From Allorhodopirellula heiligendammensis (GTDB lineage Bacteria; Planctomycetota; Planctomycetia; Pirellulales; Pirellulaceae), in contig NZ_SJPU01000002.1 of NCBI RefSeq assembly GCF_007860105.1, positions 633,256 through 697,255 of the forward strand: a DNA stretch of 64,000 bases, given 5' to 3'. The notes beneath the pieces were generated by a model. The model ran no database searches. It worked only from the letters and a program-made list of their open reading frames with translations, and was not told where the DNA came from. Position 1 is the stretch's first letter, and each line of letters opens with the position of its first letter. Both the position numbers and the translations under genes were made by a program. Positions 37,808-40,206 of the stretch are shown piece after piece.

Positions 37808-39625
37808 ATGCCATCGCTACCCCACGTCGAAACGAAGTACATCCGCAACTTTTGCATCATTGCTCACATTGATCACGGCAAGAGCACACTCGCTGATCGA
37901 CTGCTCGAAGAGACCGGTACTGTCAGCACGCGTGAAATGAAGTCGCAGTTGCTTGACGATCTTGCGCTGGAGCGTCAGCGGGGGATCACGATCAAGGCGC
38001 GCGCGGTCGCGATGCCTTTTCGTCGCGACGGAATCACCTATCAATTGAATTTGATCGACACCCCTGGCCACGTGGACTTTCAATATGAGGTCTCCCGATC
38101 GCTGGCGTGCTGCGAAGGGGCGTTGCTTCTGGTCGACGCATTCCAAGGCGTCGAGGCGCAGACGATGGCGAACGCCTTTGCGGCGATGGAGCATGACTTG
38201 TTGATCGTACCAGTGATCAACAAGATCGATCTCGTTCATGCACGCCCCGACGAAGTCGCCGATGAGATGATGAATTCGCTCGGCACCGATCCAGAGGAAT
38301 GCGTTCGGGTGAGCGCGAAGACGGGCGAGGGAGTCACGGGCTTGCTCGACGCAATCATTGATCGAGTCCCGCCGCCGTCGGGTGATCCCAATGGCACATT
38401 GCAGGCAATGGTTTTTGATTCCAACTATGACGACTTTCGTGGCGCGATCACCTACATTCGGGTCATGCAAGGGACGGTTCGAACCGGACAAAAGATCCGT
38501 TTCCTGCGTGCGGAGACCGAACATGAAGTCGTTGAACTCGGCCAGTTCGCGCCCGGGCGTGTCGCTCGTGATGAACTCGCCGCAGGCCAAGTTGGGTATT
38601 TGATCTGCAATATTAAGAGCCTGGGTGATGTTCATATCGGCGATACCGTCACGGTGCCTGGGAAACATCCAGCAGAGGCGTTGCCGGGCTACGATCGACC
38701 TCGCCGAATGGTGTATTGCGGGTTGTTCCCCAGCGACGGCCAAGAGTTCTCGGACCTGCGTGACGCTCTCGAACGTTTGGCGGTCAACGACCCAAGTTTC
38801 GAATTTGAACCGGAGACCAGCGACGCACTCGGGTTTGGTTTTCGCTGTGGCTTTCTTGGACTGCTGCATATGGAGATCATCCAGCAGCGACTCGAGCACG
38901 AATCTGACATCGACCTCGTCCAGACCGCGCCCAACGTGACCTACGAAATCGTCACGAAGAAGGGTGAGACGTTGATGATTCATAAACCACAAGATGTACC
39001 GGATCCTGGTGCGATCGAGGAGTTTCGCCAACCGATTGTCAAGTGCAACGTGATCGTCCCCGAAGACTACATCGGGGCTGTCATCAAACTATGCCAAGAG
39101 CGACGGGGAATCCAACGCAACCAAGAATACCTCGGTGCCGGTCGAGCCCTGTTGACCTATAATATTCCCTTGGCAGAAGTCATCTATGATCTGCATGACA
39201 AGATCAAAAGCTGTACGCGTGGCTATGGAACGCTCGACTACGAAATGGTCGGCTATGAACCCGCCGACCTGTGTCGCTTGGATATCCTGGTCAATGGCAA
39301 CCGGGTCGATGCACTCTCAGTCGTTTGCCACCGCGCTGATGCCGATCGGCGCGGTCGCGCCGTCGCAAAAAAACTGAAGGCAGAGATCGAGCGACATATG
39401 TTCGAGGTAGCGGTGCAAGCAGCAGTCGGTAGCCGCGTGATCGCCCGGGAAACCGTCCCCGCGATGCGGAAGAATGTGACCGCGAAATGCTATGGCGGTG
39501 ATGTATCCCGCAAGCGAAAGTTGCTGCAAAAGCAGAAAGAAGGCAAGAAGCGGATGAAGGCGATCGGCAATGTCGAGATCAGTCAGAAGGCCTTCATGTC
39601 GGTGCTCAGTAGCGGTGATGAATAA
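37808..39625 (+). CDS. lepA: Elongation factor 4 (back-translocase GTPase)
   Basis: A 605-residue ribosome-associated GTPase, the normal LepA length. The start at 37808 gives MPSLPHVETKYIRNFCIIAH; an in-frame extension upstream overlaps the ROK gene and is rejected. G1 is AHIDHGKST, G3 DTPGHVDF and G4 NKID, with LERQRGITIKA as the switch. The C-terminal region (VGSRVIARETVPAMRKNVTA, KCYGGDVSRKRKLL) is the LepA-specific domain. It is preceded by a pyrimidine-rich leader, so coupling with ROK is not by overlap. Confidence 0.97.
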   Translation: MPSLPHVETKYIRNFCIIAHIDHGKSTLADRLLEETGTVSTREMKSQLLDDLALERQRGITIKARAVAMPFRRDGITYQLNLIDTPGHVDFQYEVSRSLACCEGALLLVDAFQGVEAQTMANAFAAMEHDLLIVPVINKIDLVHARPDEVADEMMNSLGTDPEECVRVSAKTGEGVTGLLDAIIDRVPPPSGDPNGTLQAMVFDSNYDDFRGAITYIRVMQGTVRTGQKIRFLRAETEHEVVELGQFAPGRVARDELAAGQVGYLICNIKSLGDVHIGDTVTVPGKHPAEALPGYDRPRRMVYCGLFPSDGQEFSDLRDALERLAVNDPSFEFEPETSDALGFGFRCGFLGLLHMEIIQQRLEHESDIDLVQTAPNVTYEIVTKKGETLMIHKPQDVPDPGAIEEFRQPIVKCNVIVPEDYIGAVIKLCQERRGIQRNQEYLGAGRALLTYNIPLAEVIYDLHDKIKSCTRGYGTLDYEMVGYEPADLCRLDILVNGNRVDALSVVCHRADADRRGRAVAKKLKAEIERHMFEVAVQAAVGSRVIARETVPAMRKNVTAKCYGGDVSRKRKLLQKQKEGKKRMKAIGNVEISQKAFMSVLSSGDE

Positions 39626-39723
39626 CCACGCAGTGGCGCCGGACTGCTCCGTCGGGCTGAGCGCTCGATCTCGCCATCAAAATATCCGTAGAAATTTTCG
39701 CGTCCCCGCGAACCTGATCTGTC

Positions 39724-39752
39724 TTGCAATCGTCTCAATCGGTGACGATAAT
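39724..39752 (+). promoter_or_regulatory. Sigma-70-type promoter for the small transcript
   Basis: TTGCAA (39724-39729) and GATAAT (39747-39752) are 17 bases apart, a good housekeeping promoter with four of six and five of six consensus matches. An inverted repeat GTGACG (39742-39747) / CGTCAC (39755-39760) straddles the -10 and the predicted start site near 39759, so it could be an operator or a 5'-end hairpin. Confidence 0.55.
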
Positions 39753-39867
39753 ACCGTCACTGGGTCGTGATACGCGTCGCGACAAAACTTCCGTACGTGA
39801 ACTCGTCCGCTCTGGTTGGCACCTGGGCGAGAACGCGTCCAACCATGTTTACAAAGGAGGTGATCAA

Positions 39868-39909
39868 GTGGATTATTGCTGTACTAGCCAACGGGGTGGA
39901 AACCCTTGA
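39868..39909 (+). CDS. Possible 13-residue leader peptide MDYCCTSQRGGNP
   Basis: A GTG start at 39868 sits seven bases after GGAGG of the extended Shine-Dalgarno AAAGGAGGTGATC. That is ideal spacing, and almost no other gene in the window has such a site. The frame ends at TGA 39907-39909, inside the start of the junction fold, so ribosome position could affect folding. A second frame from ATG 39845 (46 codons, MFTKEVIKWIIAVL) overlaps it. Neither has a known family; translation is inferred only from the ribosome site. Confidence 0.4.
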   Translation: MDYCCTSQRGGNP

Positions 39910-40007
39910 CGAAAGTCGGCGGGCTGACGCTTGGGTCGGCCACCCCACTCGCGATCACACTCACTTTTTGAGCCTTGCTTATTGAATGAGCTTAGCGCGA
40001 GCTAAAG

Positions 40008-40051
40008 CCACTTACTGGGATGGTTACCTTGGTCTCAGTAAGTGGTTTTTT
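40008..40051 (+). terminator. Strong intrinsic terminator
   Basis: CCACTTACTGGGA (40008-40020) pairs with TCTCAGTAAGTGG (40033-40045) over 13 base pairs with one G-U pair. A 12-base loop separates them and six T follow at 40046-40051. It is more than 380 bases past the lepA stop, so it is most likely the end of the independent small transcript. Confidence 0.88.
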
Positions 40052-40206
40052 CATGCGCAGGCGGTCGCGTTGGCCGCACGGACGGATGGAAACACTCCAT
40101 CACGGCAACACTTTGTCGCTCCGAGATCGCGTGATATCAGCGAATGTTTTTCTGGTGGCGCTGAAGCCATCGTATCCACCCGCGTTACGCAATCATGTCC
40201 GCGAAC

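Follow-up and report, generated by a model that had tools for sequence, protein, structure and literature searches.

Comparative evidence for an uncatalogued planctomycete RNA gene with a 13-codon frame behind a complement of the 16S rRNA tail

Introduction

Bacterial small RNAs (sRNAs) can carry tiny reading frames, as in the dual-function sRNAs rnTrpL/peTrpL (14 amino acids) and Spot 42/SpfP (15 amino acids, a size taken from a reference title within the same paper) (PMC10117765). The nearest design that we found to the RNA described here is CC2171 (RF01867), an sRNA of Caulobacter that Rfam types as an sRNA gene, with no frame mentioned in the Rfam output. Leader-peptide attenuators also resemble this RNA, in having a short frame that overlaps alternative helices. 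The locus lies at positions 39724-40051 of a 64,000-nt stretch of DNA (the window) on contig NZ_SJPU01000002.1 of the planctomycete Allorhodopirellula heiligendammensis (GCF_007860105.1), where a preliminary description made from the sequence had proposed an unrecognised structured RNA gene with a near-perfect Shine-Dalgarno sequence. In a study that included one planctomycete species, the Planctomycetes are listed among the phyla in which only a small share of genes has a Shine-Dalgarno sequence (PMC5397173).

Results

As judged from comparison with related genomes, the candidate is very probably genuine: an RNA gene at the level of the phylum, not yet catalogued, that carries a coding mini-frame. 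In a DNA search of 60 related genomes, strong matches were found in all 13 genomes of the genus, and nine more genomes of the family were matched at E <= 0.001, giving 22 of the 60. The core was then modelled by covariance from 17 sequences (R1; 121 positions), and this model matched 166 of 198 family genomes at E <= 0.01, with two matches in four of them (G527, G558, G562 and G563) and one in each of the others; at the same threshold it matched 75 of 391 genomes of the phylum, the weakest of these matches spanning little beyond the Shine-Dalgarno sequence. A second model, R2, built from 90 sequences (those of 91 sources that matched at E <= 1e-5), gave a single match in each of 128 of 393 phylum genomes at E <= 0.001. 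By these searches, the RNA gene is usually present once per genome and is conserved in Planctomycetota. No Rfam family reached its gathering score anywhere in the window, and a literature search of open-licence PMC papers found no report of this planctomycete RNA. The preliminary description had named conservation and compensatory changes in relatives as one half of the test of its proposal, and both were found, the latter at nine of nine modelled pairs.

For comparison of the parts, 99 loci were assembled, one per genome (58, 40 and the window). The Shine-Dalgarno sequence was not located in L313 and L288 was anchored at a wrong site, leaving 97 correctly anchored loci; the counts given below for 98 loci (Shine-Dalgarno bases and stop codons) still hold L288, which contributes one TTG, one TGA and one length of 7, its true frame by eye being LNYFCTSLRGGSV. 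In all 97 loci, a start codon is found 14-17 nt from the first A of AAAGGAGG, and the frame that it opens ends at a stop codon after 10-18 codons (12-14 codons in 85 loci, 13 in 60). Of 3171 other anchors, 21.6% show the same arrangement; shuffling of the sequence behind the start put a stop at codon 10-18 in 20% of cases and at codon 12-14 in 7%. The start is GTG in 87 loci, TTG in eight and ATG in two, and the stop is TAG in 43, TAA in 28 and TGA in 27 (98 loci, one TGA being that of the misplaced L288). The window peptide reads V/M-D-Y-C-C-T-S-Q-R-G-G-N-P and the family consensus near the end is C-T-S-Q-R-G-G; in 84 of the 97 peptides, G[GSDAE] is followed by the last two or three residues, and among these 84 the consensus residues are found 53 (C), 43 (T), 58 (S), 60 (Q), 76 (R), 84 (G) and 69 (G) times. 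Loci differ in length by whole codons, with the RGG core in frame in most.

The substitutions in this stretch favour synonymous changes in the reading frame of the peptide. Among the 84 loci with the G[GSDAE] ending (62 distinct 7-codon blocks; distinct pairs with at most seven differences), 46% of the single-base codon differences in frame are synonymous (1274/2792; synonymous to nonsynonymous 1274:1518), compared with 371:1610 (19%) and 401:2325 (15%) in the other two frames; the sequence pairs are non-independent, so these figures are effect sizes and not probabilities. The arginine codons CGA, CGG, AGG and AGA are all used, as are CAA and CAG for glutamine. Because the start and stop arrangement holds in 97 of 97 loci, far above the controls, and synonymous changes are in excess in frame, the comparison indicates that the mini-frame is coding, and its translation is predicted.

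Immediately upstream of the frame lies AAAGGAGGTGATC, whose Shine-Dalgarno core is the best-kept stretch of the RNA, each of bases 4-9 (GGAGGT) being kept in 96-98 of 98 loci. At the edges, 32 of 42 non-A bases at the 11th position are G, and 23 of 27 non-C bases at the 13th are T, mostly keeping a wobble pair with the 16S rRNA. Because these edge changes mostly retain the wobble pair, they point to pairing with the 16S rRNA as a selected property, although the counts include shared descent. The 16S tail CTGGATCACCTCCTTT was read in nine of 14 relatives, while the exact pattern was absent from the incomplete assembly of the window genome and a longer pattern failed in five of the 14, including the congener G002; the complementarity stated here is to the tail of those nine relatives, all from outside the window's own genus. 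In the Phycisphaerae-like group, the Shine-Dalgarno sequence is often AAAGGAGGTGATCCAG, the full complement of CTGGATCACCTCCTTT. With both strands counted, the 7.18-Mb assembly contains a single exact copy of the 13-mer, and the window a single copy of GGAGGTGATC. Near matches of the 13-mer (at most two mismatches) are commoner than in the control (185 genome sites against 69), which indicates that Shine-Dalgarno-like sites are in general use and cautions against over-reading the uniqueness. Within the window, where most genes had been proposed to lack a strong Shine-Dalgarno sequence, two of 40 long frames have a match of at least 7 bases to the 13-mer upstream of any of their first six starts, and in 33 the best match is of only 4 or 5 bases.

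The stretch 39758-40055 is predicted to fold with -116.9 kcal/mol (z = -4.6 against 200 shuffles). This bears out a fold beyond chance, as had been suggested; the three-way junction drawn for it is, however, only one of several competing folds, and a proposed GNRA hairpin, GAC-GAAA-GTC, was not seen in the other genera of the alignment. In 90 aligned loci, compensatory changes occur at nine of nine modelled pairs of helices P1 and P2 (Table 1): P1 is paired in 96.6% of cells with double changes at five of five pairs, and P2 in 91.9% with double changes at four of four. Taken together, the two helices have 94.5% of their cells paired and 70 cells with double changes; the corresponding values are 85.5% and 10.2 in shuffles, and no more than 64% and 13 in slid controls. 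RNAalifold on the first 17 sequences gave a single pair with a double change. Helices were also compared by swapping partners between loci, where the locus's own partner fits in 72 of 97 loci for P1 against 36% for swapped partners (for the best register among those tried), in 45 of 92 against 23% for P2, and in 54 of 92 against 26% for P3, a moderate signal. These swap and covariation tests are better evidence for P1 and P3 than a free search, in which P1 reached at least 6 bp in 97 of 97 loci but also in 75% of shuffles, P1 and P3 being barely above background. The P2 loop is usually GGCG or GACG; because the P2 anchor in the free-search and swap tests presupposes the loop motif, its conservation was taken from the 17-sequence alignment, in which CGGCGG is invariant.

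Further upstream, P0 has a stem of 7 bp or more closing an ACGC loop in 63 of 97 loci, compared with 2.6% of shuffles; it mostly begins 81-98 nt upstream of the Shine-Dalgarno sequence, and its arms vary between loci while the pairing is retained. P2 and P3 are mutually exclusive, yet 41 of 93 loci could form either one with 5 bp or more. The hairpin GGGT-GGAA-ACCC at the frame end, also part of the preliminary description, has counterparts in 65 of 85 loci (the 97 minus 12, namely the Phycisphaerae-like group and L109), but 48% remain after shuffling of the tail codons, so that only a moderate signal stands behind it. A downstream mimic of the anti-Shine-Dalgarno sequence, GATCAC, was considered as a key element and rejected: strict complements of 6-base Shine-Dalgarno segments are enriched (3-12 of 97 loci against 1.3-2.2% in shuffles), but they occur in a minority of loci, GATCAC itself in 27 of 97.

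The signals that would bound the transcript are conserved in relatives at the sequence level. When the promoter search was anchored on a 5' hairpin of at least 6 bp, which 67 of the 97 loci have, the best promoter score averaged 7.9 against 5.9 (standard deviation 1.35) in shuffles, and in 40 of the 67 the -10 box ends at a near-constant 10-12 nt upstream of that hairpin. A terminator, scored as a T run preceded by a hairpin below -12 kcal/mol, is found in 45 of 59 loci; control regions lying further downstream had one in five of 57 cases, and shuffles in 4.7%. With a stricter limit of -20 kcal/mol, it is found in 44 loci and in none of the control regions. Because the promoter distance is near-constant, the terminator is conserved and neighbours are not shared beyond close relatives, the RNA is read as a free-standing transcription unit with its own promoter and terminator, with a predicted length of about 290 nt in the window genome. 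The promoter, the inverted repeat, the 16S complement, the 13-codon frame and the terminator with six T, all pointed out beforehand, were found in place and recur in relatives. In the terminator loop (40018-40035 in the window; also L110, L112, L122 and L124), ACCTTG is kept across several genera while the stem varies, and it is possibly a candidate pairing site.

Table 1. Features of the RNA gene in the window (positions of the window, all on the + strand)
Feature	Positions	Strand	Remarks
Sigma-70-type promoter, TTGCAA-17-GATAAT	39724..39752	+	TTGCAA 39724-39729, GATAAT 39747-39752; read directly
5' hairpin P0, GTCGTGAT-ACGC-GTCGCGAC	39764..39783	+	Inverted repeat 39764-39771/39776-39783, at the probable transcription start
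Second hairpin P0b, CTCGTCC / GGGCGAG around GCTCTGGTTGGCACCT	39802..39831	+	Putative; by eye in the alignment
AAAGGAGGTGATC, complement of the 16S rRNA 3' tail	39853..39865	+	Read directly
Mini-frame GTG...TGA, 13 codons + stop, peptide (V/M)DYCCTSQRGGNP	39868..39909	+	Frame in 97/97 anchored loci
Helix P1, GGGGTGG 39893-39899 with CCACCCC 39940-39946	39893..39946	+	5' strand inside the R-G-G codons, 3' strand downstream of the stop
Small hairpin GGGT-GGAA-ACCC at frame end	39894..39905	+	Alternative to P1
Hairpin P2, AGTC-GGCG-GGCT	39914..39925	+	Just 3' of the stop
Helix P3, GGCTGAC 39922-39928 with GTCGGCC 39935-39941	39922..39941	+	Excludes P2
GATCAC, able to pair with Shine-Dalgarno GTGATC	39953..39958	+	Paired in the minimum-energy fold; weak
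Intrinsic terminator, stem CCACTTACTG / CAGTAAGTGG + six T	40008..40051	+	Read directly

Discussion

The promoter, 5' hairpin, 16S-tail complement, GTG start, coding frame, P1, P2 and terminator are each supported by comparison, and selection appears to act at two levels on one free unit, the RNA fold and the coding mini-frame. This bears out the proposal of an unrecognised structured RNA gene with a near-perfect Shine-Dalgarno sequence, and the RNA probably links ribosome activity to gene control. A 30S subunit would dock via the pairing of about 13 nt with the 16S tail, and initiation could be inefficient or slow, the start being a weak GTG or TTG and almost never ATG. A ribosome finishing the frame would cover the strands that build P1 and P2, so that the passage of ribosomes, or their pausing at the conserved codons, could select between the exclusive helices (the small hairpin or P1; P2 or P3). 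The choice of helix would set the shape of the RNA, which might then act in trans, or the peptide might do so. We hold this gating by translation as tentative, with the balance leaning somewhat against it, and we put the joint statement, that the unit is a free-standing dual-function regulator (RNA and micropeptide) gated by translation, at about an even chance.

Several observations weigh against this reading. The case for a dual-function RNA is wholly comparative, and the covariation alignment was fitted to a model that contains P1 and P2 and favours them, the loci being related and the counts non-independent. A 5-bp helix at the place of P3 occurs also in 58% of shuffles, and P3 and the hairpin alternative to P1 give only moderate signals; it could thus be that the RNA keeps to a single fold. 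Nor is the peptide uniform: 13 of 97 loci lack the G[GSDAE] ending with two residues behind it, the last residues are variable, and the sequence differs by class (CTSQRGGxx as opposed to, for example, VTNCDCTKGLHA in the Phycisphaerae-like group). In L127 (5072-5196, in the single-contig genome G510), the frame is broken or shifted relative to the conserved peptide, perhaps as a natural frame mutant. Finally, 32 of the 198 family genomes had no R1 match at E <= 0.01. When 39 genomes, most of them previously unmatched, were searched again with R2 at E <= 0.1, 13 were matched; of the 21 family members among the re-searched genomes, 18 stayed empty, including the single-contig G446, and three gave weak matches (E 0.016-0.08). 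Because of these empty and weak results, the gene is taken to be either absent from some lineages, and so not needed everywhere, or very divergent in them.

Two other identities for the unit are highly improbable. A leader peptide with an attenuator controlling the next gene, one of the roles suggested beforehand, would look alike in its short frame, mutually exclusive helices and terminator, and some close relatives do share neighbours (one cluster in three Phycisphaerae-like loci, and several pairs). However, the gene that follows in the window, for an amidohydrolase (PF04909), runs convergently, and in 59 regions of up to 10 kb, compared with a crude gene caller, no neighbour family recurs beyond close relatives, the widest protein cluster being present in seven loci with scattered distances and strands. 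The position after lepA is true of the window but incidental, since among 24 RNA-bearing loci of 30 (1.5-kb flanks) only one congener shares it. Because neighbours are not conserved beyond close relatives, the RNA is not the leader of a fixed gene, and with its own terminator and the convergent next gene, the attenuator is nearly refuted and was rejected. Equally remote is a divergent copy of a known housekeeping RNA, such as 6S RNA, signal recognition particle (SRP) RNA or transfer-messenger RNA (tmRNA). Such an RNA would usually have one copy and a broad spread, and 6S RNA (RF00013) is indeed unrecognised at E <= 0.01 in the window genome and in all 13 genomes of the genus. Yet the window genome's tmRNA (RF00023; G000:C1:1913289-1913662) and SRP RNA (RF00169; G000:C1:736758-736852) are located elsewhere, with no match to either in the window; in G037, a 6S-like match just under the cut-off and the planctomycete RNA lie at separate places; and Rfam at E <= 10 over 39600-40200 yields just four hits, far below their cut-offs. 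This identity, too, was rejected.

The other explanations concern which part of the unit acts. The micropeptide of about 13 residues may be the product (a regulator, a signal or a metal- or thiol-binding peptide), with the RNA fold only stabilising the mRNA and tuning translation. The coding selection, the frequent cysteines, the SQRGG core and the whole-codon length changes all suit this, which we nevertheless regard as rather unlikely: the conserved structure on both sides of the frame seems beyond the needs of a mini-mRNA, the peptide is poorly kept between classes, and its start codons are weak. Less probable still is a ribosome-sequestering RNA, in which the 13-nt pairing with the 16S tail, the weak start and a stable helix would hold the 30S subunit and so buffer or park ribosomes in a phylum with few Shine-Dalgarno genes. 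The best-kept Shine-Dalgarno core, the edge changes that mostly keep the wobble pair, and the listing of Planctomycetes with a small fraction of Shine-Dalgarno genes, from one species (PMC5397173), agree with sequestration, but the conserved amino acids and the kept stop codon would be needless for a pure sponge, and one gene would presumably have to supply RNA in amounts near the number of ribosomes.

The dual-function regulator is the preferred reading. In a phylum listed with few Shine-Dalgarno genes, an RNA is kept that has a 16S-tail complement and a weak start codon, and whose frame of about 13 codons is woven into conserved helices. Frames of this length are easily missed by annotation, and no Rfam family reached the RNA. 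It could serve as a handle on how bacteria that often start without a Shine-Dalgarno sequence use the signal when it is present.

Comparison with known systems

Similar start sites occur outside the planctomycetes. A search of genome contigs with AAAGGAGGTGATCCAGTG gave at least 117 stretches, many of the 80 listed ones being alphaproteobacterial, and four of 16 scanned loci from several phyla matched RF01867, all four of them alphaproteobacterial (L161, L174, L186 and L194). These four have a conserved 5' part, GUG UCU CAU UGU C.., behind a full Shine-Dalgarno sequence. In 43 loci of a VSH type, the frame varies in length from 14 to 33 codons. Rhodobacteraceae-type loci (among L150-L266, for example L151, L155 and L171) open with a 16S-tail complement and GTG, and their frame of 18 codons reads VSRxxLERGVGT... 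with variants; this frame is found in 39 of 39 loci picked by the peptide motif, all three stop codons occur, and the synonymous signal is weak (42% in frame against 35% and 23% in the other frames). An upstream gene is common to 28 of the 117 loci and in L155 is PF02592 Vut_1. Bradyrhizobium-type loci (L179 7248-7265 and L185 3650-3667) have an almost fixed 14-codon frame, VS..KRCHLAGIAR, present in 10 of 10 loci picked by motif. No Rfam family was matched in the rhodobacterial L151 and L155, and only a tRNA in each of L179 and L185. The same start-site design is seen in L188 (479-512), L201 (4954-4989), L167 (4107-4137), L206 and L237, whose record names include Lujinxingiaceae, Myxococcales, Krumholzibacteriia and the SAR92 cluster (the name for L237 is not listed); two of these loci, L206 and L237, also have a GGGAGCC hairpin with a T run a short way downstream.

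It is conceivable, but unlikely, that a single class of mini-frame RNAs with a 16S-tail complement, so far unrecognised, takes in both the window RNA and CC2171 and extends across several phyla, with members in Planctomycetota, Alphaproteobacteria (the 18-codon rhodobacterial and 14-codon bradyrhizobial frames) and Myxococcota-like and other bins. If this were true, the class would sense the state of translation by direct binding of the 16S tail and translate a tiny frame to set its own shape, and CC2171, at present catalogued only as an sRNA, would itself be coding.

Among the described systems, the leader-peptide attenuators have a conserved regulated downstream gene as a point of difference, since none accompanies the window RNA in the 59 regions. 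Spot 42 differs from the window RNA in start site and fold. With its predicted peptide of much the same length, the window RNA nonetheless resembles the small RNAs rnTrpL/peTrpL and Spot 42/SpfP, which likewise carry a peptide frame (PMC10117765). RF01867 gave no match in the window, none at E <= 10 in 39600-40200 and none in the regions of 13 relatives. R1 aligns with 14 of 14 tested non-planctomycete loci only over 22-36 nt, that is, the Shine-Dalgarno sequence and the start, and its match in L160, a Phycisphaerae bin, is likewise only short. Homology to CC2171 is accordingly not supported beyond the start site, past which no similarity was detected, and the RF01867 gathering threshold was not reached; because the R1 similarity is confined to the Shine-Dalgarno sequence and the start, the design is shared while membership of the family does not hold. 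Even so, CC2171 comes nearest, with the AAAGGAGGUGAUCCA complement of the 16S tail, GUG, a short frame, a structured 3' part and a final stem. The window RNA likewise has the 16S-tail complement followed by GUG, which raises the question whether the alphaproteobacterial sRNA CC2171 is also translated.
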